Shown here piece after piece: positions 1,036 to 22,154 of a stretch of DNA of 41,431 bases. The DNA is from an uncultured SAR116 cluster alpha proteobacterium (lineage in GTDB: Bacteria; Pseudomonadota; Alphaproteobacteria; Puniceispirillales; Marisalimonadaceae): assembly GCA_902528415.1 (NCBI GenBank), contig CABZSR010000013.1:1-41431 (forward strand). The letters are read 5' to 3'. A program made the position numbers and the translations under genes. The notes under the pieces are model-generated. The model saw only the letters and a list, made by a program, of their open reading frames with translations, did not search any database and was not told where the DNA came from. Each line of letters opens with the position of its first letter. Position 1 is the stretch's first letter.

Positions 1036-2208
1036 TCAATTGATCACATACTTTTCCCAATCTTTTAAAATTACTGTTCTTTGTTCAATCAAATTTGATC
1101 TTAAGTATGCTTCTTCAACTTTGTTGGGTAGCTCGTGTGCTAAACAAAACTCTATTGCATGATGCGAGTAATTGCCTGTTTCTTCTGCCCAGGTTCTAAA
1201 CGTTGCTCTAAATCCGTGAACAGTTATTTTTAAATGAGGAAATTTTTTTTTTATAAATACAAGCATAACTCCATTAGATATATGTCTCCCAGTAGCAGGG
1301 TTTGTAAATACATAGTCGTGGTTATGTTTTTTTCTCATTAATTCGATAATAGATATGACCTCATTCGATAAAGGAACTGTGTGCTCCTTTCTTCCTTTCA
1401 TATTATAATAAGGCAAAGTCCAAATCTTTTTATCTAAATCAAATTGTTCAAACTTTGATTTAATAACCTCACTTGTTCTTGTTATAGTTAAGATTAATAA
1501 CCTTAATGCATAAGTTGAAAGTAAATTTAATTCACATAATTCAATATAAAATCTACTAATATTGTCATGAATTAAATAGGGATGATGCTTGACCTTTCTG
1601 ATTTTAAAGGGGTTTGGAAGAATATGGTAAAGATGTTCATGCCAAGAGGCAGGATTTTCTTTTAAGTACCATTTCTTTACTTTGGCAAAAGTTATTATTC
1701 GGAATAATCGTTGTTGAAGACGTCTTGCAGTCTCTGTTTTAGTAGTCCAAATAGGTAATAAAACCTCAACAATGTCGTCATTATTTATATCAATAAATGG
1801 TTTCTTATCTAAAACAGGGGAGGCGTAGGTAGCAATTGTATTTCGCCATTGTTGTTCACTTTTAGGATTAGTCCATTCATCTTTCTTTTTTGTTGAAATA
1901 TAGATATCTGCAATATCTGAGAATTTCTTATTTTGCTGTTGCCTAAGTATTTGGGCTCTATTCTTTTCATCTATAGGGTCAATCTTTTTACCTAGTAATT
2001 GCTTATTGCTTAGTGCATGTTGTCTAGCTTGAAAAAGCGATACATCTGGGAAGCCTCCTAAACCCATTTCTCTTGATTTTTTGTTAATTGTATAGCGAAA
2101 ACTCCATTTGCCTCTTCCAGGGCTATTAATTGAAAGATAAAGCCCATTTCCATCATGATATTTGCCTATTGGTAAAGCTAATATTTGTTTTGCATTTAAT
2201 CTTTTCAT
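1036..2208 (-). CDS. P4-type tyrosine integrase (complete)
   Basis: A 390-residue site-specific recombinase of the P4 family. The N-terminal DUF4102-like domain (residues 1-85) contains DGNGLYLSI, then KWSFRYTI, then LGGFPDVSL. A SAM-like core-binding domain follows, and the catalytic domain starts near residue 205. Active-site residues are visible: Arg in TITRTSEV, His and Arg in HGFRATFR, the second His in LAHELPN and the Tyr in EEAYLRSN. Length is normal for the family, so it may be functional. Its 5' end points at the 16-base copy of the tRNA-Ser 3' end at 2350-2365, about 140 bases away, as expected for an integrase next to its attachment site. It lies outside the 2350-22077 interval, so it most likely belongs to a separate, more distal element. 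Confidence 0.92.
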   Translation of the reverse strand: MKRLNAKQILALPIGKYHDGNGLYLSINSPGRGKWSFRYTINKKSREMGLGGFPDVSLFQARQHALSNKQLLGKKIDPIDEKNRAQILRQQQNKKFSDIADIYISTKKKDEWTNPKSEQQWRNTIATYASPVLDKKPFIDINNDDIVEVLLPIWTTKTETARRLQQRLFRIITFAKVKKWYLKENPASWHEHLYHILPNPFKIRKVKHHPYLIHDNISRFYIELCELNLLSTYALRLLILTITRTSEVIKSKFEQFDLDKKIWTLPYYNMKGRKEHTVPLSNEVISIIELMRKKHNHDYVFTNPATGRHISNGVMLVFIKKKFPHLKITVHGFRATFRTWAEETGNYSHHAIEFCLAHELPNKVEEAYLRSNLIEQRTVILKDWEKYVIN

Positions 2209-2609
2209 GTCATCTCCAGTCTACAACTTGGCCCACAAGTTGGGTTGATTAAAGATGATTTATAATGAAATAGTATGAAGAGCCTTCGTCAACAACTTCC
2301 CGTGTTTCCTTAGGTTTATGACATAGTATGACATAAGGAAGTTATCTTAATGGCGGAGGGAGGGGATGTCAATTATCTTACTAAGTTACTGATTATTTTA
2401 AATAATTTGAAATAATGACTTCCTATTCCCCGCTCTAATCCCCTAATATGGATCACAATTATTTTCTGATCTTTAAATCAAACCAGAGAACCTCCTCCTC
2501 GTTATATCATTTTAATCATTTTATCAATCTTATGTTTTGGGGTATTTGATAAATAGACATACCAAGCATTAAGGACGCAACTTACCAACGACCTTTAAAG
2601 GTATATTTG
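2209..2609. other. Non-coding junction region with attachment-site repeat
   Basis: About 400 bases without a convincing gene. It contains short direct repeats of TATGACATA near 2320-2337 and an AACTTCC/GGAAGTT inverted pair around them. The copy of the tRNA-Ser 3' end follows at 2350-2365. The rest up to 2609 is plain AT-rich sequence with a small ACCTTTAAAGGT palindrome near 2590. The TATGACATA repeats lie between the integrase and the attachment copy, so they may be integrase arm-type sites; that is inference. Confidence 0.5.
2350..2365. repeat. Distal attachment-site copy of the tRNA-Ser 3' end
   Basis: Sixteen bases, ATGGCGGAGGGAGGGG, identical to 22062-22077. There they form the CCA, the discriminator, the whole 3' acceptor strand and part of the T-stem of tRNA-Ser(GCT). 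Tyrosine integrases commonly use tRNA 3' ends and leave such a copy at the far end of the element. No tRNA body is attached to this copy, so it is a scar and not a second gene. It marks a boundary between two elements or the far end of the 19.7-kb island. Confidence 0.8.
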
Positions 2610-5110: not shown

Positions 5111-5791
5111 TTAATTCGCTGCCATACAATTTGTTACTACTCCATAAATTATAGAACAGTAATTAGCTTTTCCTGAAAATTTTATTGCATCTTCAAGTGA
5201 TTTATTTTCTTTTATAAAGTGAAGTGCAGAAAAGATAACATTATATACATACCCATCTGACTTTAACTTGGCATTTTGTAATTTTGTCCAACTTTCTTTT
5301 AAGTCTTTGTTGTTAGAAATAAGATTTTCAGCATCGTCAAAACTTTTACCTTCCAGCAAGTATCTACAAAGCATAATTACAATAGCAGATCCATTTCCTG
5401 CATCATCATCAAAATGTGTAATTTTGGCTTCCAGTTTTGCCAAGGTTATAAGTTTATTGGTCGGTATAGCTAACATACCAGCTAAAGGTGTTGCCCTGTG
5501 AGCTGGGCCACATCCAGCTGTATTAAAGCCAAACTCTTCATGTACTTTTTTTACAGCTAATTTAGGATCCATCCCTTTATCAATTTTGTTAAAAACACTT
5601 GCATATGTTGGGCCCGTATCAAATGCATCACTTTGCCACCAATTTAAATATCTTAGTCTTAAGTCATCTTCGTTAAATTGTTTATTTGCAGTAAGGCTGT
5701 CAGTTAATATTTTAGCTAACTCAGACGGACCTCCAATTTGGTCGCCTATCTTTATGCCTTCTATAATTAGATTTGTATAATCATTCATCAT
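5111..5791 (-). CDS. Divergent ADP-ribosylglycohydrolase (DraG/ARH) family protein
   Basis: A 226-residue alpha-helical protein. The N-terminus has the family GIKIGDQIGGPSEL motif. The middle has RYLNWWQSDAFDTGPTY, corresponding to the W...FDIG.T segment, then AGCGPAHRATPLA in place of SNGALMR-APL, then HFDDDAG in place of the T-H-x-D helix. The last helix, where DraG enzymes carry GGDTDT that binds Mg, reads FSGKANYCSIIYGV, so the second metal aspartates are absent. It is also shorter than the usual 300 or so residues. Enzymatic removal of ADP-ribose is therefore doubtful; it may bind ADP-ribose or a related ligand. A second, broken DraG homolog lies at 13071-13715. The start codon is uncertain by one Met. 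Confidence 0.7.
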   Translation of the reverse strand: MMNDYTNLIIEGIKIGDQIGGPSELAKILTDSLTANKQFNEDDLRLRYLNWWQSDAFDTGPTYASVFNKIDKGMDPKLAVKKVHEEFGFNTAGCGPAHRATPLAGMLAIPTNKLITLAKLEAKITHFDDDAGNGSAIVIMLCRYLLEGKSFDDAENLISNNKDLKESWTKLQNAKLKSDGYVYNVIFSALHFIKENKSLEDAIKFSGKANYCSIIYGVVTNCMAAN

Positions 5792-5897: not shown

Positions 5898-6566
5898 ATG
5901 AAAAATTATGATGAAGAAAGATCAGAAAAATTACTTAATTTATATTCTGGTGCTATTACTGATATAATGGATGCACTTAGTCCTGATTACAGGAACCAAA
6001 CTCTGCCAAGTGATTTACGCCCTCTTACCCCAGATATGAAGATAGCAGGACCTGTATATACAGTTCGCGGTAACAAAAGATTCTATGATGACGGAGAAGA
6101 TCCGAGGTATAAACAAATGGATATGTTGGACGGAATTTTTCCTGGAAGCATAATAGTAATGGACTCTGGAGATGAAAAATCTGCTGCGCATTGGGGCGAA
6201 TTAATGAGTAAAACTTCAATGGAAAAAGGTGCTAAAGGCGCATTAATTCATGGAGGCATAAGAGATACTGACGAAATAATTAAACATAAATTTCCAGTTT
6301 TTGCTTGCTACTACTCTCCTCTAACTGCTGTGTATAGATATAATATAATAGATTTCAACAAACCTATTACAATTGGTGAGGTTAAAATTAATCCAGGAGA
6401 CTATGTATTTGGAGACATTGATGGAGTTGTATGTGTTCCTAAAGAAATTATAGATGAAGTGATAAATGAAGCAGAGATAGTAAAGGGTAAAGAAGATATT
6501 GTAAGAGATGAACTTTCTGCAGGAAAAAATATTAGAGACTTGTTTGAAAAATATAAGGTGTTTTAA
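5898..6566 (+). CDS. RraA-like family protein (HMG/oxaloacetate aldolase type)
   Basis: A 222-residue member of the RraA/demethylmenaquinone-methyltransferase-like fold. Members cleave 4-hydroxy-4-methyl-2-oxoglutarate or decarboxylate oxaloacetate with Mg, and E. coli RraA instead inhibits RNase E. The key segment is visible: WGELMS (Glu of the G-E-L loop) about residue 99, then ALIHGGIRDTDEI with the catalytic Arg-Asp pair near residues 122-123. The C-terminus has PGDYVFGDIDGVVCVPKE, the family dimer strand. With R-D and E present it is likely an aldolase or decarboxylase. The start has AGGAGA nine bases before the ATG. It lies in the island beside a DraG-type gene and a MORN gene, and is transcribed with the latter. 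Confidence 0.8.
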   Translation: MKNYDEERSEKLLNLYSGAITDIMDALSPDYRNQTLPSDLRPLTPDMKIAGPVYTVRGNKRFYDDGEDPRYKQMDMLDGIFPGSIIVMDSGDEKSAAHWGELMSKTSMEKGAKGALIHGGIRDTDEIIKHKFPVFACYYSPLTAVYRYNIIDFNKPITIGEVKINPGDYVFGDIDGVVCVPKEIIDEVINEAEIVKGKEDIVRDELSAGKNIRDLFEKYKVF

Positions 6567-6576
6567 GTTTAAAAAG

Positions 6577-7050
6577 ATGATTAACGACAATGAGTATAAA
6601 GAAGGCTTTAACGACTTCCTTGATGATGGATATGGTACATATATTCATTCTAATGGAGACAGGTACGTTGGCGAATTTAAAAATTACAAGAAGTGTGGAC
6701 ATGGTATCTCTCAATATTTAAGTGGAGATCAATATGTAGGTTCATTTAAAAATGACACCAGACACGGCCAAGGAACTTATACATGGGCAAACGGAGATCA
6801 ATATACAGGTGAATACATCAATGGTGAAATGAGTGGGCAAGGTATTTTTACTTGGTCAGATGGAGATATGTACGAGGGTGAATTTAAGAATGATATTTTC
6901 AATGGCAAAGGTATTTACACGTTTACTTATGGTGATAAGTATGAGGGTGGATTTAAAGATGGTTTACGTTTTGGTGAAGGTACTTACACTTACTCAGATG
7001 GAAGTATAAAAAAAGGGTTCTGGATGGGTGATTTACGAATTGTTACCTAA
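6577..7050 (+). CDS. MORN-repeat protein
   Basis: Six MORN repeats of 23 residues, each of the form GxGxYxxxxGDxYxGEFKN, fill about residues 15-157 (for example GQGTYTWANGDQYTGEY). The repeats form a beta-hairpin rod; in bacteria they occur in lipid-binding, cell-envelope or unknown proteins. There is no signal peptide and no fused enzyme domain. The ATG at 6577 is chosen because the frame upstream of it only reads through the end of the RraA gene and adds no repeat. Only 10 bases separate it from that gene, so the two probably share a transcript. The target is unknown. Confidence 0.75.
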   Translation: MINDNEYKEGFNDFLDDGYGTYIHSNGDRYVGEFKNYKKCGHGISQYLSGDQYVGSFKNDTRHGQGTYTWANGDQYTGEYINGEMSGQGIFTWSDGDMYEGEFKNDIFNGKGIYTFTYGDKYEGGFKDGLRFGEGTYTYSDGSIKKGFWMGDLRIVT

Positions 7051-8220: not shown

Positions 8221-8625
8221 ATGAGAAGCCTTTTTGAAAGTTTATTTACTACCAAAGACATAGTTAGAGCTAAGTATCCAAACGGTTGGGTAGGGTGGCT
8301 TAATGACGAAATGTCTGACGATGATGACGGCAGGCTTACTAGGTTCAGCACAATGGATGGTAGGTACATGTATATTATTGTTGAGCAATTGATTGAGTAT
8401 GGTTTCAGACCACCAGAGTTAGTCAATGACACAATTCATTTTCATGACTTTTATTTAAAGACTTATGAATATCAAGATTATTCCAAATTTGATTTCTCAA
8501 AGTATAACATAAAATTACCTGACTGGCTTAATATACAATTACAATCTAAAAAAAACATTCAAGGTATTGAAGCATTTGAGTTAGATAATTCAAATTTTAG
8601 TGGATTTGATTATTCATTTAACTAA
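8221..8625 (+). CDS. Protein of unknown function (134 aa)
   Basis: An acidic, aromatic, soluble protein. Visible features are an NGWVGWLNDEMSDDDDG acidic loop near residue 20, EYGFRPPEL near residue 60 and DLY-rich strands afterwards. No family is recognised. The start has only a weak ribosome site, and an alternative start upstream is blocked by a stop. It converges on the Zn-ribbon/GIY-YIG gene with a 28-base gap. Confidence 0.45.
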   Translation: MRSLFESLFTTKDIVRAKYPNGWVGWLNDEMSDDDDGRLTRFSTMDGRYMYIIVEQLIEYGFRPPELVNDTIHFHDFYLKTYEYQDYSKFDFSKYNIKLPDWLNIQLQSKKNIQGIEAFELDNSNFSGFDYSFN

Positions 8626-8653: not shown

Positions 8654-9163
8654 TTATAAGTCTGGTGTTTTGTTACTTTTTATATTCATTTCTTCATTTT
8701 CTCTGGGTCCTATGACTTTAAACCCTTTTTCTTCCTCTTCTTTACCCCATGCTGGCTCTCTTAATTTAGAAGTTTCTAATTTCATAGGTCCTTCAAATTC
8801 AATCATTGCGGTTCCATAATTTTTTGCATGTTTGCTGGAATACTTCCCCAACAAGTGGTTTAAGTATCTTTCATATGGATGCAAACCTGTTCTACCTATA
8901 TAAAAGTCGTTATCTAATTTATATTTTTTTTGTTTTCTCAATCTAATCTTATAACAATAATTTCCTTGAGATTTCGGAACTTTAGCTTCTGAAAGAATTT
9001 GTTTTTTTAGAGTTTTAAATTCTTCACTATCTTTTTTTAATTTACTAAAAGATTTTTTTATCTTCCATTTATCCCAGTGTACTGCTGTACATTGGGAACA
9101 TTTGAATAGCAAACCATCAAAATAACCTTCAGAACTACATACACGGCAAACAGTTTCAGTCAT
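8654..9163 (-). CDS. Zn-ribbon/GIY-YIG-like nuclease-fold protein
   Basis: From the ATG at 9163 (169 residues), a treble-clef or zinc ribbon comes first: CRVC at residues 6-9 and CSQC near 23-26. After a basic helical linker the GIY-YIG-like part follows: NDFYIGRTGLHPYERYLNHL. It has the Tyr-x-Gly, the Arg-x2-Tyr and the His helix, then KNYGTAMIEFEG, and a REPAWGKEEEEKGFKVIG end in place of the A...E...G helix. Some GIY-YIG catalytic residues are therefore in place. The start codon overlaps the stop of the RecD2-like helicase by 8 bases, which is strong evidence of coupling. A longer start at 9190 is possible but would add only a basic leader. Confidence 0.6.
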   Translation of the reverse strand: MTETVCRVCSSEGYFDGLLFKCSQCTAVHWDKWKIKKSFSKLKKDSEEFKTLKKQILSEAKVPKSQGNYCYKIRLRKQKKYKLDNDFYIGRTGLHPYERYLNHLLGKYSSKHAKNYGTAMIEFEGPMKLETSKLREPAWGKEEEEKGFKVIGPRENEEMNIKSNKTPDL

Positions 9164-11327
9164 CCTTAATCTCTGTTTGAAGTGTTTCAATTAAGTTTGT
9201 ATATCTTAAATCAGGTAATTTTTGTATTCCCTCATTTAACGAACTTTCTTCTCCAACTAAAAGGGCCTTATCTTTCGCCCTTGTAAGAGCTGTATAAATT
9301 AAATTTCTCCTAAGCATAAATTTATGTTCACTTGAACATGTAATTATTACCCCTTTGTAGTCAGAACCTTGGCTTAGGTGTATGGTAATTGCGTATGCAA
9401 GTTGTAAATCAAACGCGTCCTTAGTTGAAAAATCTATTTCTTTCGAATTAAATTCCGTTACTATTAGGTTACCGCTTTTTCTTAATACTCTTCCTATGTC
9501 ACCGTTAACCAAACCAAGTTCTTTAACTTTATTTTTTCTCATAATAACTTTGTCACCCGAATAAAAGTTCATCTCAAATTCACCACCTTTACCTTTTATT
9601 TTGTTGGTGAATACTGGGTTACGTCCAGCAGTTGTTCTTTGTTGGATTAACCTATTGAGATTATAAAGACCAACTTCACCTTCTCTCTGGGGTGTTAGGA
9701 TTTGGATGTCATCTTGCTTAATGCCAGATTTTGGTAACGTATCAAAATAGAGTTCCAATACTTTATCTGCCTGTCTTCCTCGTGGAACATCATTTAAAAC
9801 AATGTCATTTCTAAAATCATTATCCAAAGTTGGAATTTTACCTCGTACGATTTCGCGTGCCGCTTTTGCTATACCACTCATCGATGCTTGTCTGTAGTTA
9901 CCAGTTAACTTTGAAACTTTAATTTTATTGGATCTAATTAAATCTTTAAAAACTTGTCCTGGACCTACAGGAGGTAGTTGATCTGCGTCACCTATGAAAA
10001 CGACTGACGCTTTGTCTGGTATTGAATTAAGGAGAGAACTCATCAAGTCTATGTCAATCATTGAAGATTCATCTACAATCATTATGTCAAATTTATCTTC
10101 AGACTTTGGTTCATTTGCCCCAAGATATGAATGTATAGTTCCAGGATTATATTTTTTCAGACCCTCTGTTGATATACGTGTGGCTGCCTTGCCAGTTGGT
10201 GCGGTCAATTTTAATTTTAATTTTAAATCTGATACAGCACTCACCAAGGCTTTAACCATTGTAGTTTTTCCTGCGCCAGGACCACCTGTAATAATAGAAA
10301 TAGGGCTACTAACAGCTGTGTTGACAGCTTCTATTTGTTCATCAGACAAATCTACAGTTTTTTGTGTTTTTAATTCTGATTTGGTAAATGATTTTTTATT
10401 TTCTCCTCGTTCAAATTTACTTATTATTCTATTTATCTCTTGGGTTATTTTCTTGTCTCTAAGTTCCGAGGCTTCTGATTGGATGATCTCCTTGTCATTT
10501 TTTTTGGTGAACTTAAATTCCGAATTAGATTTTTTAATAACTTCTGAAACAAAATCTTTCTCAAATTCTTCAAGCTTGATCACCTCATCTAAGACACGGT
10601 CAAAAGGGTAACATGTGTGTCCGTTGGTTGTTTCTTTTTTCTTAATCACATGGTTGGTTGCAGCAATTATAATTTGTTCATCTGAAATTTTAAAATCTAA
10701 TCTTTTACAAACTTTCTTTATTTCGTCCAACGACAAATAAGGAATTGTTCCAAGCAGAGAAATAGGGTTTGTAATAAGTTTGTGAAGAATAGACAGTCCA
10801 TAATCTTCACGAAGATGTTTTTTTTGAACATTTGTGAAGCCAAGCTCGTTAAGTAAAATATCGTAGTGAGCTAAATCATTAGTCTTTGCCCAACCATTAT
10901 TTATACTCTTAGCTTGGTCTTCAGTAATATCAAACTTTTCTTGTATGTGTGATGATGACCCTTTGATAGTTCTAAGGGTGTTCATATTGCCACGGTTAAC
11001 AATTTTATCAGCTAAAACTTCGCCAACACCTCTAAAATGCCAACCTGAAAGAAATAGTTTAAGGCCTTTCAAGGGAGCATTTCCTAAATATAGAAGGTTA
11101 GCATCTTGCGTAACTACTTTTTTTATTACTTGCTTAGCGTCTACAGCATACCAACCACTCTTAAATTTTTTATTTTTAGGGAAATCTATTTTTCCATATA
11201 AAACACTTTGACCAAGATTCTTTTCTTTGTCGATTACGCCAACAAAATCTATTTTTAGATCAGGAACATCTTCTTTTTTTGAAGGTTTCTTGTAAAAATT
11301 AAATTTGGGATTATATTTTTTTTTCAT
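9156..11327 (-). CDS. RecD2-like superfamily 1B DNA helicase
   Basis: A 723-residue helicase. The N-terminal 230 residues have an OB-like strand set, a helix-hairpin-helix (GVGEVLADKIVNRG near residue 100) and the linker typical of RecD2. The motor follows: Walker A GGPGAGKTT near 350, APTGKAATRIS, motif II MIVDESSMID, GDADQLPPVGPG, the NYRQ motif, LTPQREGEVG and a C-terminal NGDIGRV SH3 part. Motif V/VI are AITIHLSQGSDYKGVII and YTALTRAKD. It is expected to unwind DNA 5' to 3' and does not need RecBC. The frame is intact. It follows the 156-aa gene by 12 bases and overlaps the GIY-YIG gene, so the three form one operon. Confidence 0.9.
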   Translation of the reverse strand: MKKKYNPKFNFYKKPSKKEDVPDLKIDFVGVIDKEKNLGQSVLYGKIDFPKNKKFKSGWYAVDAKQVIKKVVTQDANLLYLGNAPLKGLKLFLSGWHFRGVGEVLADKIVNRGNMNTLRTIKGSSSHIQEKFDITEDQAKSINNGWAKTNDLAHYDILLNELGFTNVQKKHLREDYGLSILHKLITNPISLLGTIPYLSLDEIKKVCKRLDFKISDEQIIIAATNHVIKKKETTNGHTCYPFDRVLDEVIKLEEFEKDFVSEVIKKSNSEFKFTKKNDKEIIQSEASELRDKKITQEINRIISKFERGENKKSFTKSELKTQKTVDLSDEQIEAVNTAVSSPISIITGGPGAGKTTMVKALVSAVSDLKLKLKLTAPTGKAATRISTEGLKKYNPGTIHSYLGANEPKSEDKFDIMIVDESSMIDIDLMSSLLNSIPDKASVVFIGDADQLPPVGPGQVFKDLIRSNKIKVSKLTGNYRQASMSGIAKAAREIVRGKIPTLDNDFRNDIVLNDVPRGRQADKVLELYFDTLPKSGIKQDDIQILTPQREGEVGLYNLNRLIQQRTTAGRNPVFTNKIKGKGGEFEMNFYSGDKVIMRKNKVKELGLVNGDIGRVLRKSGNLIVTEFNSKEIDFSTKDAFDLQLAYAITIHLSQGSDYKGVIITCSSEHKFMLRRNLIYTALTRAKDKALLVGEESSLNEGIQKLPDLRYTNLIETLQTEIKDD

Positions 11328-11339
11328 AAATCTTATCCC

Positions 11340-11810
11340 CTAATTAGTTAAATTTTGTTTGTCTTCGTCATCTAAGTTTAGAAAAGCTAACGTAGACGGG
11401 TCAATGTTTTTATTAAATAGCTTAGTCCAGTAAGTTTTATTTTCTTTCCACTCACCTTCATATTCTTTTACTTGATCTTGGTAACGCGAAAATGAATTTA
11501 TGGATTTATCTTTAAATTCGACATGTGGTTCCAGATAATATTCCTCCATAACATCTCGTATAGCCCTTAATTCAAACCACAGATCTCTTACTTCATTTAC
11601 TAACTCATCATTGTCGGAACAAGTATTAATCTCAGTTATAAGTAAAGTGATTTTTATATTTATGTATTTGTTAAACCAAACTTGTTTTTCATTTCCATCA
11701 TCTGGTGTCCATATTTCAACAAGTTCAAATTTTGACTTTGAAAGTAATGATTGGATGCTGTTTAGGTTTGATAAAGAAACTTTGATTTGATTTTTAAAAT
11801 TATTTTTCAT
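11340..11810 (-). CDS. Protein of unknown function (156 aa), first gene of helicase operon
   Basis: Mostly helical and acidic, with an LSNLNSIQSLLSKSKFELVE start and a NDELVNEVRDLWFELRAIRD helix in the middle. No catalytic motif or membrane segment is visible. The start has AAGGAG five bases before the ATG and sits directly beside a perfect 23-bp inverted repeat, one arm of which ends in the first bases of that ribosome site. This arrangement could control translation of the operon. It is transcribed with the RecD2-like helicase and the Zn-ribbon/GIY-YIG gene. It does not resemble known RecD2 partners that I can name. Confidence 0.55.
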   Translation of the reverse strand: MKNNFKNQIKVSLSNLNSIQSLLSKSKFELVEIWTPDDGNEKQVWFNKYINIKITLLITEINTCSDNDELVNEVRDLWFELRAIRDVMEEYYLEPHVEFKDKSINSFSRYQDQVKEYEGEWKENKTYWTKLFNKNIDPSTLAFLNLDDEDKQNLTN

Positions 11811-11818
11811 AATTACTC

Positions 11819-11876
11819 CTTAATTTTTTTAATTTTTTCTCTCGCAAATTCATGAGAAAAAATTAAAAAAATTAAG
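11819..11876. repeat. Perfect 23-bp inverted repeat with 12-base loop
   Basis: The arms are 11819-11841 and 11854-11876. Each arm has the shape CTT-AA-T7-AA-T6-CTC and pairs with no mismatch; the loop between them is 12 bases (11842-11853). The structure abuts the ribosome site of the leftward 156-aa gene. The stem is almost purely A-T with a GAG/CTC cap at the loop, so it could act as an attenuator or mRNA stabiliser, or be a binding site. A rho-independent terminator lies just beyond it. Confidence 0.75.
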
Positions 11877-11888
11877 AAGTGTTTTTTC

Positions 11889-11915
11889 AAAAAAAAAGCT
11901 AGAAAAACCTCTAGC
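11889..11915 (-). terminator. Rho-independent terminator for the small membrane-protein gene
   Basis: Read leftward, the sequence forms GCTAGA-(six-base loop)-TCTAGC, a 6-bp stem, followed by nine T. It lies 65 bases after the stop of the 65-aa gene at 11980-12177 and before the helicase operon. It therefore separates the two transcription units. Confidence 0.7.
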
Positions 11916-11979
11916 GAATTTAAAAATAGCAATTTTTATCTAATTAGTCAAATTTGTGTTAAATCAGACACAAGATATA

Positions 11980-12177
11980 TTAATTTCTGTATGTTAATTT
12001 AAGTCTTAGCCTGATTACTTCTGCAAATAAAATCAAACTTGCGATAGGCCAAATTACACAAAATACCCAGACGTTAATTTCTTCGTAAGTTATACCAAGA
12101 ATATTTGCTAAGTCGTACAGAAGATAAACACAAAAATTGAAAGTTTGATCTATCCAGTATATACCGCTGTTAGCCAT
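11980..12177 (-). CDS. Small single- or double-pass membrane protein (65 aa)
   Basis: A strong ribosome site (AAGGAGA) lies seven bases before the ATG. The protein has a hydrophobic stretch NFCVYLLYDLANILGI and a clear C-terminal membrane helix (VWVFCVIWPIASLILFAEVI), then a basic RLRLKLTYRN tail, which places the tail in the cytoplasm. Function is unknown. It has its own terminator at 11889-11915, so it is a separate unit lying between the helicase operon and the divergent nuclease gene. Small membrane proteins are common effectors in defence or toxin systems, but no toxin family is recognised here. Confidence 0.6.
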   Translation of the reverse strand: MANSGIYWIDQTFNFCVYLLYDLANILGITYEEINVWVFCVIWPIASLILFAEVIRLRLKLTYRN

Positions 12178-12314
12178 GATAATTCTCCTTCAATTATCTT
12201 TAATAACATTGAATTAAGACATGAAATAGTCAACTATATGTTCTTAAAAAGATTATTTATGTGAAATCTCATCAAATATTTTAATTTGTAGATTTGATAG
12301 TGAGGATAAATTTT

Positions 12315-13016
12315 ATGTTAAAATTAAGTAGATCGGCTGTAGAACAATACCTAAACTGTAAACGTTGTTTTGTTTTAGTATATAAACATAAAGTAAGACC
12401 GAACATGTTGCCATTTACATTAAATATTGCTGTCGACAATTTATGTAAAAATGAATTTGATTACTACAGAGAGAGACAAGAACCACATCCCTTATTTTTG
12501 AAGCACAACATAGACGCTGTTCCATTTAAGCATCCTGAAATGAATAGATGGCGAAATAATTTTCAAGGTATTTCATATATTGATGAAAATCTTGGGTTGA
12601 ATTTTTATGGCGCAGTTGATGACGTGTGGATTAAACCTGATGGCGAATTGATTATCTCAGACGTCAAAAGTACTGCAAAAAAAGTTTTTGATTGGGATGA
12701 TACATGGAGCAGATATGAATATCCTAAAGGATATCGAAGACAGCTTGAAATGTATCAATGGATATTTAGAAAAAATGGATTTAACGTATCTGATACAGGT
12801 TACCTGGTTTATTACAACGGTCTAAAAGATGAGCCAATGTTTAACCAAGTTTTAAAATTTGATCTTCACCTTGTAGAACTTAAATGTGATGACAGGTGGG
12901 TAGATGAAACTCTAGTCAAAGCTAAAGCCCTTCTTGAAAGCGACGAATATCCTCAGGGCTCTAAGACGTGTGACACATGTCAGTATTTAAAAAAGAGGTG
13001 GGAAGTTACTAACTAA
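12315..13016 (+). CDS. PD-(D/E)XK nuclease superfamily protein (Cas4/RecB-like)
   Basis: A 233-residue nuclease fold. The N-terminal KLSRSAVEQYLNCKRCFVL is the Ser-x-Tyr-x2-Cys helix of RecB/Cas4 nucleases. The catalytic set follows: NFYGAVDDVW (first Asp), then ELIISDVKST (Asp-x-Lys) and YRRQLEMYQWI (Gln and Tyr helix). The C-terminus has CDTCQYL, resembling the Fe-S or zinc cysteines of Cas4, but with only three obvious cysteines in all, so the cluster is uncertain. Such proteins trim DNA ends. The ATG at 12315, preceded by GAGG, is preferred over a TTG at 12294. It is divergent from the small membrane gene and near the RecD2-like helicase, suggesting a shared DNA-processing task. No other Cas gene is present. 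Confidence 0.8.
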   Translation: MLKLSRSAVEQYLNCKRCFVLVYKHKVRPNMLPFTLNIAVDNLCKNEFDYYRERQEPHPLFLKHNIDAVPFKHPEMNRWRNNFQGISYIDENLGLNFYGAVDDVWIKPDGELIISDVKSTAKKVFDWDDTWSRYEYPKGYRRQLEMYQWIFRKNGFNVSDTGYLVYYNGLKDEPMFNQVLKFDLHLVELKCDDRWVDETLVKAKALLESDEYPQGSKTCDTCQYLKKRWEVTN

Positions 13017-13070: not shown

Positions 13071-13715
13071 TTAAAATGTTTTCACATTAGTATCTGATAA
13101 TTTCAAAGCATATTCGTAAATTTCGTCATACATCATTAGATTATTTTTGAAATAATCTGGTATACCTGACAAGCCGTAAAATCTACCAGCAATCATACCA
13201 GCTACAGCGCCAGTAGTGTCTGCGTCATGCCCTCTGTTAACAGCCTTTATTACACAATCTTCAAAATTGTTAGTTGTTGAAAAAGCCCACCAGGCTGCTT
13301 CATATGTTTCTTTTACAAATCCTCCAGACATTACATCTTCTCGTCTGATGTTATCTGGCAATTTATATGTGGAATATTTTGGTATAGCTTTCCCTAAAAA
13401 CAGTTCTTCAGCGAACATCACTGAATATTGAACACATAATTGGCTGCCATGTGTCAACAGAGTTTGCTGTAATGCTAACCTTATCGATTCATCTCTGTCT
13501 TTCGAAACAACCACAACAGGTGCCATCCGCATTAAGGCGCCATTTCCTGATGTGTTTTCAGCAATTCTCCCTCTGTAAGGCTGGTGAAGTTTATTGGTTT
13601 TTATGCTTTCGGAGTAACTACTTAATGCGTCATATACAGTGTTGCCAATATCAAAGCATTTACTTCGAGTACAAAATTTTCCTTCTTTGAACCACTGATA
13701 AAATTCTATCGAAGA
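13071..13715 (-). pseudogene. ADP-ribosylglycohydrolase (DraG family), 5'-truncated
   Basis: The frame is open on the minus strand from 13715 to the stop at 13071. Beginning at the truncation it reads SSIEFYQWFKEG, CFDIGNTVYDAL, PYRGRIAENTSGNGALMRMA and near the end GHDADTTGAVAGMIAG. These are the W-F-x-G, FDIGNT, SGNGALMR and GDADT motifs of DraG enzymes in the right order. What is missing is the N-terminus, including the first GD-x-G and the TDDT-type metal site. A stop codon lies just beyond the break. The only internal ATG (13532) would leave out the FDIGNT and SGNG motifs, so it is a remnant. It ends where the truncated integrase begins, and so marks a rearrangement scar. Confidence 0.85.
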
Positions 13716-14311
13716 CCGTCAAAGTGAAGCGGGTAAAGCACTTTTCTGCTCTACCCTACAACGACATTGGTGTTTTCTTACAAGAACTGCGTCAACTTAA
13801 AGGGTACTCTGCCTTGGCTTTAGAATTTCTTATCCTGACTGCAGCTCGTACCAGCGAAATTATTGGTGCAAAGTGGGCTGAGATTGATCTTGAAAAGAAA
13901 ATTTGGACGGTGCCTGCTGGTCGCATGAAAGTGGGAAAAGAACATCGAGTTCCCTTATGCATACGAGCAATCAAAATCCTCTCAAATATTACATCTAATA
14001 GAAATCCTGAAGAATATGTTTTCTCTGGGTGGAAACAAAACAAAGGTCTTAGCAATAACGCTTTACTAACCTTACTCAAGAAGATGGGTCGATCAAATAT
14101 AACAGTTCATGGATTTCGAAGTACTTTCAGAGATTGGGCAGCTGAGGAAGCCCACACATTCGCAAACGAAACAATTGAGTTAGCACTCGCCCATACAATC
14201 AAGAACAAAGCCGAAGCTGCCTATAGACGGGGAGATCAGTTAGAAAGACGTAGAGAACTAATGTCTGCTTGGGACTATTATACTAATCAGCATTCTCGAT
14301 CTAAGGATTAA
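13712..14311 (+). pseudogene. P4-type tyrosine integrase, N-terminal half missing
   Basis: Only the C-terminal catalytic domain remains (about 195 residues), starting at KTVKVKRVKHFSALPY, which matches residue 205 onward of full-length family members such as the integrase at 1036-2208. Active-site residues persist: Arg in TAARTSEI, HGFRSTFRDW, LAHTIKNK and the Tyr in EAAYRRGD. The N-terminal DUF4102 and core-binding domains are gone, replaced by the DraG remnant. A GTG at 13724 could start a short product, but without arm-binding and core-binding domains it should not integrate. The gene leads into the AlpA/primase/helicase genes with 4 bases to the next start. Codons are less AT-rich than to the left, consistent with a different origin. 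Confidence 0.85.
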
Positions 14312-14315
14312 GAAG

Positions 14316-14714
14316 ATGAGCGCTAGAAAAGGTCAAACTCGGCTAAAAGAAATAGCCAGTCAGATATCTCAAGACAAACAACTGAGCCCTGAAGATAAAG
14401 AATTCTTGGTTAAAGCGTTGATTGAAATCTCTGATGGTGAAGATGCAGAAACCGCTTTGGCTGTGAAATTTAAAAAAGGTGAGCGTAAAAGCCGCCAAAC
14501 AAGAGTCGCAAAAATCAATAAAGCGCTGGTGATGGTATTGCTTGCAACAGCTAAAGCACCAAAAAGTGAGGGCGGACTTGGGCTTACTTTGCAAGATGCA
14601 GTTGCAATGGTAAAAGCAGAGTGGGGTAAGCTTCCCTCGGAACAAACTCTACGACGTTATTGGAACGACGTAAAAAATACTCAAGAAAGAGATTTTGAAA
14701 TAAAAACGGATTAA
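14316..14714 (+). CDS. Protein of unknown function of P4-like element (132 aa)
   Basis: A basic helical protein. It has a short LSPEDKEFLVKAL helix, a DGEDAETALAVKF segment, and then KGERKSRQTRVAKINKALVM, rich in Lys and Arg. The C-terminal third has LPSEQTLRRYWNDV, which looks like a DNA-binding helix. No family name can be given. It is in an operon-like row of five genes on the plus strand, between the integrase remnant and AlpA. It may be a regulator or an accessory replication protein. Confidence 0.6.
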   Translation: MSARKGQTRLKEIASQISQDKQLSPEDKEFLVKALIEISDGEDAETALAVKFKKGERKSRQTRVAKINKALVMVLLATAKAPKSEGGLGLTLQDAVAMVKAEWGKLPSEQTLRRYWNDVKNTQERDFEIKTD

Positions 14715-14801
14715 AATCTTGATTTAAGTCCTTCGACCAACTTCTTGGTTATTGGTATCAATCTAATAATACCCATTAATTTATGATTGGAGTTGGTTAA
14801 A

Positions 14802-15023
14802 ATGGCAATAGAAATTAAAAGACAACGTATTCTACGTATGCAAGATTTACCTGATAGAATTGGGTTTCGACCTTCAACTATTTACGAGCTGATTGCTAAA
14901 GGCAAATTCCCACGGCCCTTTAAGCTAATGCCAGGGGGAAGAGCAGCTGGATGGCTTGAAGCTACGATCGATGATTGGATCGCGTCACGAAATGACGACA
15001 GCCAACACAACAGCACAAAGTAA
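14802..15023 (+). CDS. AlpA-family regulator (second copy in window)
   Basis: A 73-residue protein with RILRMQDLPDRIGFRPSTIY as the first helices and FPRPFKLMPGGRAAGWLEAT, then DDWI, as the wing. These are the classic AlpA features. The ATG at 14802 with GGAG nine bases upstream is preferred to a TTG at 14787. It differs in sequence from the AlpA at 689-925, so it comes from another element. A 12-bp inverted repeat overlaps its stop codon. In P4-like islands AlpA controls excision; here the cognate integrase is broken, so the element is probably stranded. Confidence 0.85.
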   Translation: MAIEIKRQRILRMQDLPDRIGFRPSTIYELIAKGKFPRPFKLMPGGRAAGWLEATIDDWIASRNDDSQHNSTK

Positions 15024-15055
15024 AACTCACGACGCGATGACCATGAGTTTTACTT
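15018..15055. repeat. 12-bp perfect inverted repeat between AlpA and primase
   Basis: The arms are 15018-15029 (AAGTAAAACTCA) and 15044-15055 (TGAGTTTTACTT) with a 14-base loop that is richer in GC (CGACGCGATGACCA). It lies at the stop of AlpA and 72 bases before the primase start. It may be a terminator without a T-run, or part of the replication origin that the primase/helicase pair acts on. Origins close to the primase gene are known in P4-type replicons; the role here is inferred. Confidence 0.5.
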
Positions 15056-15126
15056 AGCGTGCAATCTAAGATTTACCGTTAAATTATAACCGATTTGGTC
15101 ATGCGCAGCAAGCGTAAGGCATTAAA

Positions 15127-15684
15127 ATGAATAGCATTATAACACCAAGTCTCTCCACGGCTACAAATTTCCTTGATACTTTGGAACCACAAGGCGAATT
15201 CACTTTTCAAACTTTTGACGATGACCAAAGCCGCAACAACAAGAATTTAGTTCGTGTGCTTCACGGGACGTTAAACAAACATGCCACAACCTTAACAACT
15301 CTCAATCAGAAAGGAGCGGGAATATTTGTTACAGTGAACAAAACTAACTTAAAGGGTCGTAAAGCAACCGATATTGTTAGGGTTAGAGCCGTGTTTCTTG
15401 ATTTAGATAGCAGTCCATTAGAGCCAGTTTTAGATCATTCCTTGGAACCACATATAATCATAGAGTCATCATCTTCTCGTTGGCATGTATATTGGCTTTG
15501 CGAGTTGCCGTGCGAAGAGTTTTCGGCCGTCCAATTAGGTCTAGCAGAGAAGTTCAATGGGGATACCTCGGTTGATGACTTACCGAGGGTCATGCGACTT
15601 CCAGGGTTCTATCACTTAAAATGTGGTATTGGAAGAACTCTTAAACCTTTCCAAACACGCATCAAACAAATTCCGGGGTACTAA
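15127..15684 (+). CDS. RepB-type DNA primase (AEP fold)
   Basis: A 185-residue archaeo-eukaryotic-type primase domain. It shows VRAVFLDLDSSPLEP, with the DLD metal pair near residue 98, and IIESSSSRWHVYWLCE, with the Ser-x-His motif. It also has LPRVMRLPGFYHLK near the end, which resembles the R-L-P-G-x-x-K motif. It would make RNA or DNA primers on the element's own origin. It stops 2 bases before the start of the helicase gene; in many P4-like elements these are one fused protein, so here the fusion is split into two genes. AAGG lies eight bases before the ATG. Confidence 0.85.
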   Translation: MNSIITPSLSTATNFLDTLEPQGEFTFQTFDDDQSRNNKNLVRVLHGTLNKHATTLTTLNQKGAGIFVTVNKTNLKGRKATDIVRVRAVFLDLDSSPLEPVLDHSLEPHIIIESSSSRWHVYWLCELPCEEFSAVQLGLAEKFNGDTSVDDLPRVMRLPGFYHLKCGIGRTLKPFQTRIKQIPGY

Positions 15685-15686
15685 AG

Positions 15687-17396
15687 ATGGCAGTCCACAA
15701 ATATAACGCCGAAGAAGTTATCGCTGCTTTCAAAAAACCTTTACTGAGAAAAACAAGCGAAGAGCCTAAAGACTCCAAACATCTTGATATAAATGAAATT
15801 AAACGCGCATTAACTTATCTTGATCCCAGCAACCGCGAAGTATGGATAAATGTGGGACATGAAATGAAGTCTAAAGGAGAAAGTTTGCGAGAACCATATA
15901 TCGAATGGTCTCGTGGAGATTTAACTGGAATCACTCCAACCAGTTTCATAAGCGACGAAGATGTGTACTTAAAATGGGAAGAGTTTGATCCTAAAAGAAC
16001 CTCCATCAGTTTCCTCTTTAAAGCAGCAGAAAAAAACGGCTATGAACTACCGTGCGATAGCTATCTGCTCGAACGGGGTACAATAGTAGAGTGCGCCGAA
16101 TATCTTCTGTCCAAAATGTCCTTAAATGCCCCAGAGCCAGTTTTTTCTGAAGGAGCATTTTGGCAATATCAAGGGAATTGTTGGGTACAAATACCTAACC
16201 ATGACCTACGAAAATTAGGACACAAACTTGACGGAATAAAAGTCAAACAATCCAAAAAAGCTCTCAACGCAACCAGTAGTTTTATTGATGGTGTCCTAAA
16301 AGAGATGGCTGCGATGTGCGCAAACCCAGATTTTTTTAGTCAGGGACCATGTGGAGCGAATCTACAGAATGGATTTGTTCGGTTGAATGACGACGGCTCA
16401 CTTGTTTTGGAGGATCATTCTCCCCGGCATCTGCAGCGCAATGTAATAAAGTGCAATTGGCTACCCGACATTACAGAAGAGTTTACTGGATACACGCGAG
16501 TACTTTTGGACGGCTGTTTTGGGGAATCTGATATGGAATTACAAAACCTCCTTTTAGAGATAATCGGTGTTGCAATCCTTGGAGTATCAACACGCATGAA
16601 AGCACCCAAAGGAATTGTATTCTTTGGCGCAACAGCATCAAATGGCAAATCGACAATTTTAAGCCTTATAAGGTTGATTTTACCGCAGTCAGCAACCTGC
16701 AGTATCCCACCAAGTGACTTCGAGAGGGAACAAAGTTTAGCAATTTTAGTAGGAAAAACAGCAAACCTTACTGACGAAATCTCCAACCATAAGTCTATAG
16801 CTTCCGATAAAATGAAGTCGTTGATTACGGGCGATATTGTTGCAGCAAAAGTAATTTACCAGCCAGTTTTTAATTTCAAACCAATAGCAACTCACATTTT
16901 TGCTACCAACGAATTACCAAACTTCAAAGGTGGCGTAGACGCAGGTGTTGAAAGAAGGATGTTAGTGATCCCGTTCAACAAAACCATCCCAGAGGAAAAG
17001 CGAATAACAAATCTTGAAGAGCTGATAGCAGACAAGGAAGCTTCTTTACTTGTGAGCGCTGCTATTTCAATAGGTGGCAGGGCGTATCAACGAGGAACAT
17101 TTAACATTCCAGCTTCATGTAAAGATGCTACCCAGCAGTGGTTTAAGGATTCTGATCCAGTGCGTGAATGGTATGCCGAAGGCGAAATGGGACGTCACGT
17201 TGGTCGTAAGCCTAAACTTCTCAAAGAACTCTACAAGAATTTCTGTGAAGATATACGTGAATTTGAAGATGCTAACTATTTGCCGGGCAAACGGCGTTTT
17301 ATAGCACAAATCAAAGCCCTAGTTGAAACGGACATTGATTGGCGGATCGAACGGCACGCTAGTGGTCTAATAATTTGCAAGAATACTCTAGTGTAG
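15687..17396 (+). CDS. P4/D5-type replicative helicase with PriCT-2 domain
   Basis: A 569-residue protein. Residues 25-110 look like a PriCT-2 domain, which normally sits C-terminal to the primase (LDPSNREVWINVGHEMKSKG, then TSISFLFKAAEKNGY). The middle is a D5_N-like region with EGAFWQYQGNCW. The superfamily 3 helicase core follows, with Walker A GATASNGKSTILSLIRL near residue 314, Walker B and the B' motif KTANLTDEIS near 360, and HIFATNELPNF as the sensor. This is the ring helicase of P4-like and other autonomously replicating islands. No frameshift is visible, so replication may still be functional although integration is not. Confidence 0.9.
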   Translation: MAVHKYNAEEVIAAFKKPLLRKTSEEPKDSKHLDINEIKRALTYLDPSNREVWINVGHEMKSKGESLREPYIEWSRGDLTGITPTSFISDEDVYLKWEEFDPKRTSISFLFKAAEKNGYELPCDSYLLERGTIVECAEYLLSKMSLNAPEPVFSEGAFWQYQGNCWVQIPNHDLRKLGHKLDGIKVKQSKKALNATSSFIDGVLKEMAAMCANPDFFSQGPCGANLQNGFVRLNDDGSLVLEDHSPRHLQRNVIKCNWLPDITEEFTGYTRVLLDGCFGESDMELQNLLLEIIGVAILGVSTRMKAPKGIVFFGATASNGKSTILSLIRLILPQSATCSIPPSDFEREQSLAILVGKTANLTDEISNHKSIASDKMKSLITGDIVAAKVIYQPVFNFKPIATHIFATNELPNFKGGVDAGVERRMLVIPFNKTIPEEKRITNLEELIADKEASLLVSAAISIGGRAYQRGTFNIPASCKDATQQWFKDSDPVREWYAEGEMGRHVGRKPKLLKELYKNFCEDIREFEDANYLPGKRRFIAQIKALVETDIDWRIERHASGLIICKNTLV

Positions 17397-17656
17397 CTAG
17401 TGAACGAAAAAAGTTAAGCTTTCTTCATTAAATTAACTAATCAGTTATTAAATATAAATTTAAAATAATTTGTCATGTTTTTTGGTACACTACGTTCACT
17501 ACCCGTCATATTGTTAGATACAGGCCACTGCCTTTGAACAACAAGCAATCTGCCGCTACAGCATGAAGTTAGCCCCACGGTCTCGGCCCCTTACATAGGC
17601 TCTTACGTCATCTATTTATTTAGCCTGTCGTTTGCCCCACAGTAAGGTTTAACTAT
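17397..17656. other. Non-coding end of the P4-like module, with repeats
   Basis: No gene is apparent. An AT-rich part to 17490 contains TAGTGAACG at 17398-17406, whose inverted copy CGTTCACTA is at 17493-17501. From about 17500 the base composition becomes markedly GC-richer. Two copies of GT(T/A)GCCCCAC-like sequence lie at 17568-17578 and 17630-17640, 62 bases apart. A GGTTTA/TAAACC pair overlaps the stop of the next gene. The paired GCCCCAC copies may be binding sites, but nothing proves a function. Confidence 0.4.
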
Positions 17657-22062: not shown

Positions 22063-22077
22063 TGGCGGAGGGAGGGG
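22062..22077. repeat. tRNA-proximal attachment copy (16 bp)
   Basis: The same ATGGCGGAGGGAGGGG as at 2350-2365, here as the 3' end of the intact tRNA-Ser gene on the minus strand. Together the two copies bracket about 19.7 kb. The overlap with a functional tRNA explains why insertion does not destroy the gene. Confidence 0.85.
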
Positions 22078-22154
22078 GATTCGAACCCCCGAAAGGGATT
22101 GCTCCCTTTAACGATTTAGCAAACCGGCGCCTTCAGCCACTCAGCCATCCCTCC
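22063..22154 (-). tRNA. tRNA-Ser (anticodon GCT)
   Basis: Read leftward, the acceptor arms GGAGGGA and TCCCTCC pair fully; the discriminator is G and a CCA is encoded. The anticodon loop is TTTGCTAAA, giving GCT, which reads AGC and AGU serine codons. There is a long variable arm (AAAGGGA...TCCCTTT), typical of serine tRNAs, and a T-loop TTCGAAT with a GGGGG/CCCCC stem. It is 92 bases with the CCA. It is the integration site of the island to the left. A plus-strand frame over it (22062-22244) is an artefact. Confidence 0.97.

Follow-up and report, generated by a model that had tools for sequence, protein, structure and literature searches.

Pairs of a helicase and a nuclease are common among bacterial immune systems. 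To our knowledge, the helicase type is fixed in the known systems of this kind. Gabija, for example, combines the nuclease GajA (an OLD/TOPRIM ATPase-nuclease) with the UvrD-like helicase GajB in one defence operon. Hachiman is described as consisting of the effector nuclease HamA and the sensor helicase HamB (PMC12278908). Two further sources describe UvrD-Cas4-like helicase-nuclease proteins, which join a superfamily 1 (SF1) helicase to a PF12705 nuclease near type III restriction genes (PMC5704561), and GIY-YIG nucleases in the anti-phage systems PD-T4-3 and PD-lambda-1 (PMC10952713). Here we analyze contig C13 from the genome of an uncultured SAR116 alphaproteobacterium. The window is this whole contig of 41,431 bases, and the host genome comprises 1.72 Mb and is 73% complete. 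It contains a three-gene operon, coding for a 156-residue orphan protein (orf156), an SF1 helicase and a GIY-YIG-like protein, that looks like a form of defence, directed at phages or foreign DNA, which has not been described so far.

The genes of the operon are all located on the minus strand and are listed here from the first gene on:

11340-11810, minus strand: orf156, first gene of the operon; an orphan family of 156 residues and the constant partner of an SF1 helicase

9156-11327, minus strand: RecD2-like SF1B helicase of 723 residues, beginning 12 bases past orf156

8654-9163, minus strand: Zn-ribbon and GIY-YIG-like protein of 169 residues, overlapping the helicase gene by 8 bases; likely the effector nuclease

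An earlier note on this DNA had proposed five open reading frames (ORFs), and we found all of them: 8654-9190, 9156-11327, 11340-11810 and 11980-12177 on the minus strand, and 12294-13016 on the plus strand. The third gene of the operon more likely starts with the ATG at 9163 (169 residues) than at the ORF end at 9190, because this start produces exactly the 8-base overlap with the helicase gene that the note had described, and because the homologue in genome G046 likewise overlaps its helicase gene by 8 bases. The same note had made its candidate depend on a conserved gene order, and this order does extend beyond the genus. G046, from a different genus of the family, has these three genes in unchanged order, with identities of 62% (orf156), 69% (helicase) and 53% (GIY-YIG-like protein) and with identical spacing (a gap of 12 bases between orf156 and the helicase gene, followed by the 8-base overlap). 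The DNA of G010 is 98.3% identical to the window over 7,245 bases, up to the end of the G010 contig. Since synonymous changes dominate between these two sequences (25 synonymous and 2 nonsynonymous changes in the helicase gene, 10 and 1 in the GIY-YIG-like gene), both genes are under purifying selection.

By sequence, orf156 belongs to no recognisable family. Its best matches reached 0.029 in Pfam, 0.028 in PHROGs, 0.026 in PADLOC and 0.094 in the PDB, and NCBIfam gave none up to 0.1. The helicase contains an SF1 core and the HHH domain of RecD2, as judged from matches to PF13604 (AAA_30; 9.4e-38, 130.3 bits) and HHH_RecD2 (1.9e-7, 31.4 bits, cut-off 27). Its Walker A motif lies at residue 348, followed by DES at 419. 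The score against the RecD2 model TIGR01448 is 490.4 bits with a curated cut-off of 500, and that against SH3_13 is 25.9 bits with a cut-off of 41. The HHH_RecD2 and TIGR01448 scores agree with the earlier description of the protein as RecD2-like. The third protein combines a CxxC...CxxC pattern with a Y-x-Y, Y-I-G, R, H, E pattern, which we take to be the GIY-YIG catalytic motif. The putative catalytic residues Y, Y-I-G, R, H and E are present in all three aligned copies, with Y-V-G in G046. PF01541 does not match the window protein. A homologue in G059, encoded about 370 bases from an orf156 gene, does match this model at 5.7e-4 (20.6 bits, cut-off 22.6), and a profile comparison with a second GIY-YIG-like family, introduced below, gave a probability of 71% over 37 columns. 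The earlier call of a GIY-YIG-like protein therefore stands on motifs and on weak, sub-threshold homology, without a Pfam match of the window protein itself. Single-sequence structure predictions were too poor for use (predicted local distance difference test, pLDDT, 46.3 and 51.8), and the GIY model, used as a query for similar folds, had no match at 0.001; the DNA polymerases at the top of that search were taken as meaningless.

Across the order, orf156 is tightly paired with an SF1 helicase of varying type. A profile search detected the orf156 family in 15 of 136 genomes, and in 13 of these 15 the next gene codes for an SF1 helicase. This helicase is of the SF1B RecD2-like type in three genomes (G000, G010, G046) and belongs to an SF1A UvrD-like family in the other ten (G027, G016, G024, G003, G023, G005, G004, G065, G043, G108). 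The gap between the two genes measures 11-14 bases in 11 of the 13 cassettes, and -1 and 77 bases in the remaining two. The linkage also holds when viewed from the helicase. Copies of this UvrD family (51-100% identity, E 7.5e-223 or lower) were found in exactly 10 of the 136 genomes, all with orf156, and no other genome had a UvrD match better than 1.1e-48; identities there were mostly 29-34%, apart from a few short pieces that reached 45%. Likewise, RecD2 copies of 69% identity or more occur in 3 of 101 genomes, again all with orf156. Because such copies are so rare, we do not consider the helicase to be a housekeeping protein, which the earlier note had named as a reason to abandon its candidate. 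It is nonetheless the sole RecD2-type match in the 73%-complete host genome, where no second one was detected. A scan of a collection of genome contigs with the helicase gave one locus (100% in the best segment). More distant RecD2 proteins (37-39%) are encoded by solo genes in a chromosomal setting, with no orf156 beside them, in G059, G062 and G065. In G059 and G062 this gene is flanked by pgk on one side and, as judged by eye, by a gene for an aldehyde dehydrogenase on the other; the latter gene also adjoins it in G065, where the contig ends.

A comparison of the two helicase types by hhalign revealed no common accessory domain. In the UvrD-type helicases at six loci (L033, L036, L037, L038, L040, L044), the UvrD core is followed by about 90 residues that form a conserved C-terminal domain, for which hhalign found no match in the RecD2 type. 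The orf156 tree was mostly unresolved, and we do not take it to prove which helicase type replaced the other.

The third gene of the cassette is exchangeable as well, with two GIY-YIG-like families or a HEPN-motif protein in this role. Among the 13 cassettes, three contain the Zn-ribbon GIY gene. The second GIY-YIG-like family occupies the third slot directly in three others (G005, G004, G108) and follows further down, past inserted genes, in two (G003, G016). Two cassettes contain a protein with an RNxxxH motif, presumably that of HEPN proteins, encoded directly after the helicase in G023 and upstream of orf156 in G065; HEPN-type Pfam matches of the G023 copy reached only 0.019 and 0.044. The GIY family of the window occurs in 4 of 136 genomes, always within about 2.2 kb of an orf156 gene. 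The second GIY family occurs in six, five of which have it on the orf156 contig within about 7 kb; the sixth copy (G118) is broken, with no orf156 in the stretch read. The HEPN-motif protein is present at full length in two genomes, both with orf156, and as a partial match in five more. The islands of G023 and G005 show such an exchange. A stretch of 2.9 kb with orf156 and the helicase gene is 96.5% identical between them, and 2.7 kb of flanking DNA at the effector side agree at 90-96%. Between these matching stretches, G023 has the HEPN-motif gene and G005 has the GIY gene plus three others. Unrelated third proteins also share the C-terminal sequence DCIFPF after an acidic stretch, with only three copies, all in that slot, among 267 ORFs:

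L037:5720-6667, L038:6675-7295 and L039:2699-3319: DCIFPF-tail proteins; two unrelated proteins in the same operon slot

This shared end could be a tail used for docking, or a trace left by recombination.

Beyond the order, matches to orf156 are scarce. A search of the class found orf156 in 2 of 385 genomes, namely in the genome of the window itself and as a weak partial match in G420, and a sample of the phylum found it in 1 of 398, again that of the window. In G420, from another family of the class, the weak partial orf156-like ORF (E 1.8e-4) adjoins a RecD2-like helicase, and a further adjoining ORF is PD-(D/E)XK-like by eye; this arrangement is only suggestive. Scanned viral contigs contained no relatives of the helicase, orf156, the window GIY protein or the second GIY family. 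In plasmids and phages, neither tblastn with the G003 copy of orf156 nor a search with the window GIY protein gave a match, and the second GIY family had none in plasmids. The helicase has only distant matches there, in 1867 phage and 1423 plasmid records, all below 60% identity, with the best one listed near 30% over most of its length.

How does this cassette compare with the described systems? Like Gabija, it unites an SF1 helicase and a nuclease, here a likely one, in one operon. The difference lies in the helicase: that of the window is RecD2-like and matches GajB at only 0.0095, whereas the four UvrD-type relatives that we scanned match the GajB model at 9e-83 to 1.5e-86 (among the best 25 matches per helicase). 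GajA was absent from the complete PADLOC match lists of the window cassette, and neither HamA nor HamB was found among its PADLOC matches. The helicase of Hachiman belongs to a different superfamily from that of the window. The similarity to Hachiman concerns the working model, in which a helicase that senses genome integrity is described to free a nuclease (PMC12278908). UvrD-Cas4-like proteins are described as fused or as encoded by a gene pair (PMC5704561); in our case the PF12705 gene stands apart, with a loose linkage only, and it is orf156 that steadily accompanies the helicase. PD-T4-3 and PD-lambda-1 also use a GIY-YIG nuclease as a defence component, and the passage that lists them mentions no partner resembling the helicase or orf156 (PMC10952713). 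RecD2 proper (TIGR01448) shares the helicase motifs and the HHH domain and stands alone, whereas the window helicase scores just under the cut-off and is tied to an island operon. The best PADLOC match of this helicase is RecD_0_IVD of type IV-D CRISPR systems (2e-64). No Csf protein was found among the matches of the 18 scanned window proteins, which include weak Cas4 and Cas11a cross-matches; no CRISPR array search was made. With no PADLOC match better than 0.026 for orf156 and the GIY protein (PADLOC-DB, 2023 version), the earlier statement that the set matches no nameable system holds. The combination of orf156, SF1 helicase and nuclease was not described among the literature matches listed, where a later description may have been missed.

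The neighbours of orf156 provide support, not proof, for a role in defence. We scanned 14 orf156 loci for known defence genes (L033-L044, L013 and the window; G010 was left out) and found such genes, from restriction, BREX or DISARM systems among others, at 5 or more of the 14, in contrast to none of 12 controls. Five is a lower bound, as the large ORFs of the loci not named below were scanned together and the best 25 of 68 matching families were considered. L033 contains a type I restriction-modification (RM) system and DrmD, and L034 a DrmD 84% identical to that of L033. BrxL and PglZ are encoded at L035, a type IIG-like enzyme at L040, and a type IIG enzyme together with an HKD-SNF2 protein at L013. 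The controls, 12 stretches of 18 kb from the same genomes with 74 ORFs of at least 350 residues, gave no RM, BREX or DISARM match at 1e-30, although a single UvrD and two regulators of the RtcR type did match. One-sided Fisher tests returned p = 0.030 (5/14), 0.024 (5/13, without the window) and 0.047 (4/12).

The operon resides in mobile DNA, as the earlier note had proposed, and the following features define its setting:

22063-22154, minus strand: tRNA-Ser(gct), the integration hotspot

2351-2365, plus strand: likely attachment site, a 15-base exact copy of the 3' end of tRNA-Ser(gct)

1036-2208, minus strand: integrase gene, adjoining the 15-base copy, which sits upstream of it

About 1e-6 chance matches are expected for this one 15-mer. 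The cassette lies to the left of the tRNA gene. Since copies of the tRNA end are present at both sides (2351-2365 and 22063-22077, about 19.7 kb apart), the cassette island is bounded by two copies of the likely attachment sequence. With the integrase outside the left copy, this arrangement points to tandem islands in one tRNA hotspot, where the left copy would be part of another element, arranged in tandem and running off the contig. The flank formed by tRNA-Ser(gct) and LysR is on the cassette contig in four of the nine orf156 genomes of the genus (G000, G023, G003, G016), on another contig in G024 and G027, and was not found in G010, G005 and G004. The helicase at this hotspot is RecD2-like in G000 and UvrD-like in G023, G003 and G016. 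The cassette of G046 has a 14-base copy of the tRNA end 1.8 kb away.

The window contains several other elements. Positions 13706-17400 contain the remnant of a P4-like element of higher guanine-cytosine content (about 40-44%), with the C-terminal part of a tyrosine integrase, an AlpA-like ORF (by eye), a RepB-type primase and DUF5906. It abuts an ADP-ribosylglycohydrolase gene that is cut at 13705; the G010 DNA follows the window exactly to this position and then diverges. We rejected the idea that the ADP-ribosylglycohydrolase pieces at 5111-5791 and 13071-13532 are one gene split by the cluster, because the G010 match runs to exactly 13705 and because 5111-5791 has near full-length relatives elsewhere. 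An ORF of 134 residues at 8221-8625 has no good family matches and is about 70% identical in islands of G023, G005 and G004. A MORN-repeat gene at 6508-7050 has relatives near the cassettes of L034, L038 and L040. Rfam gave no match at the gathering threshold between 7000 and 14500.

Three further features separate the operon from, or place beside it, genes that the earlier note had counted as part of a five-gene unit:

11898-11915, minus strand: terminator-like hairpin with a stem of 7 pairs and a run of 9 T, located between orf156 and the membrane ORF

11980-12177, minus strand: membrane ORF of 65 residues, a conserved island passenger outside the core

12294-13016, plus strand: PD-(D/E)XK nuclease, Cas4/RecB-like (PF12705, 8.5e-11), outside the operon

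The terminator-like hairpin and the conservation of the membrane ORF agree with the description of a separately terminated membrane protein. This protein is 83% identical at L037, L038 and L039 and 69% at L044, and its ratio of nonsynonymous to synonymous substitution rates (dN/dS) is about 0.08 against L037, with synonymous sites near saturation. It moves independently of the operon: the gene stands beside orf156 only in the window and at L044, and lies kilobases off on the same contig at five other loci. Its presence in 16 of 40 genomes of the genus (7 of 9 with orf156, 9 of 31 without) served as a yardstick for island content. The PF12705 match confirms the nuclease call. This nuclease is not part of the operon, because its family occurs in 29 of 136 genomes and only three carry it beside orf156 (the window, G027, G024); G010 probably does so as well. 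We reject the view of it as a mere passenger, since its co-occurrence with orf156 extends across genomes and is stronger within the genus than that of the membrane ORF. The family was found in 11 of the 15 orf156 genomes versus 18 of the 121 others (p = 5e-6); for the genus, the counts are 6 of 9 versus 1 of 31 (p = 1e-4), both p values ignoring shared descent and genome incompleteness. Because of this genome-wide co-occurrence, the nuclease may be a loose partner that is encoded apart, with shared descent as another possible cause. Of the five-gene unit, then, the operon persists, the membrane peptide is a passenger, and the nuclease is mostly found elsewhere in the genomes that it shares with orf156.

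Taken together, we consider it rather probable that the operon is a mobile helicase-nuclease cassette with an exchangeable motor and an exchangeable effector that acts against phages or other foreign DNA, a function predicted from gene content and context. The helicase would sense or open DNA that is abnormal, loading for instance at ends, at gaps or on intermediates of phage replication. Bound to the helicase, orf156 would serve as an adaptor or gate that couples it to the third protein. Unwinding could then license this third protein to cut DNA, or RNA in the HEPN versions, and cutting would stop the invader or the infected cell. The PD-(D/E)XK nuclease, encoded nearby or elsewhere, may assist. 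Because orf156 stays with the helicase at 13 of 15 loci while the third protein changes, the simplest reading is that it acts as a specificity or gate factor on the helicase. More tentatively, orf156 might be the adaptor of a two-socket immune architecture, which would accept SF1A or SF1B helicases on one side and interchangeable GIY-YIG (DNA) or HEPN (RNA) effectors on the other, with the DCIFPF tail as a docking signal in one lineage; we regard this elaboration as possible and rather doubtful.

Several observations weigh against a defence cassette of this kind. The orf156 family is almost confined to one order. Two orf156 loci have no adjoining SF1 helicase: in G059 a RecQ-like gene (by eye) lies upstream and a small GIY protein is encoded nearby, and in G068 a DnaJ-like gene (by eye) comes next. 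Three of the 13 cassettes have no visible third gene, of which those of G024 and G043 end at a contig edge and that of G027 does not. The GIY-YIG and HEPN assignments are sub-threshold, and the islands of G023 and G005 also differ elsewhere, for example upstream of orf156. The comparison of neighbours is small (p = 0.030, with the window counted), and its rows are not all independent, L033 and L034 being related loci. The 18 scanned window proteins include no known defence gene beyond the helicase and the Cas4 and Cas11a cross-matches, and one of the control regions contains a chromosomal UvrD that is likewise matched by GajB models. As a separate observation, the two orf156 genes without an SF1 helicase adjoin a related small protein (L042:5892-6083, 63 residues; L043:6530-6808, 92 residues). 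The defence candidacy proposed earlier thus gains from the defence-like context of the relatives, with defence itself still a prediction; a role in DNA uptake, suggested alongside it, found no support.

The same genes could form an accessory repair or recombination operon on islands, with a helicase and a nuclease that would serve the host by processing DNA ends or branched DNA. The RecD2 and UvrD families include repair members, the 37-39% identical RecD2 of G059, G062 and G065 is a solo chromosomal gene, and the co-occurrence with a RecB/Cas4-like PD-(D/E)XK nuclease would suit end processing. However, a patchy spread (15/136), a hotspot location and defence neighbours would be odd for repair, as would the replacement of a likely DNase by a HEPN-motif (RNase-like) protein, and we consider this explanation unlikely. 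Integrase genes beside or near the cassettes of L037, L038, L039, L040, L041 and the window, together with the attachment-site repeat of the window island, would fit a maintenance or transfer module of integrative elements, with the helicase aiding island replication or excision and the nuclease processing ends. The position of the cassette relative to the integrase is shuffled between islands, though, and the third gene varies between islands with nearly identical helicase DNA, which makes such a module quite improbable. If hypervariable islands had merely gathered unrelated genes by chance, the helicase and GIY genes with their overlap would be the only unit. Chance suits the membrane peptide, also found in 9 of the 31 genus members without orf156; for the operon it is very improbable, because orf156 and the helicase are linked in both directions (13/15 and 10/10), in different genera and with both types of helicase.

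If the reading as a defence cassette is correct, the swaps from an SF1A to an SF1B motor and from a likely DNase to a likely RNase around a small constant protein would mean that immune systems of this kind can be built from interchangeable parts, and such parts would make the signal that they share directly testable. In the marine group SAR116, whose loci of this kind are recognised only in part by PADLOC, orf156 would be a signature for finding defence cassettes.

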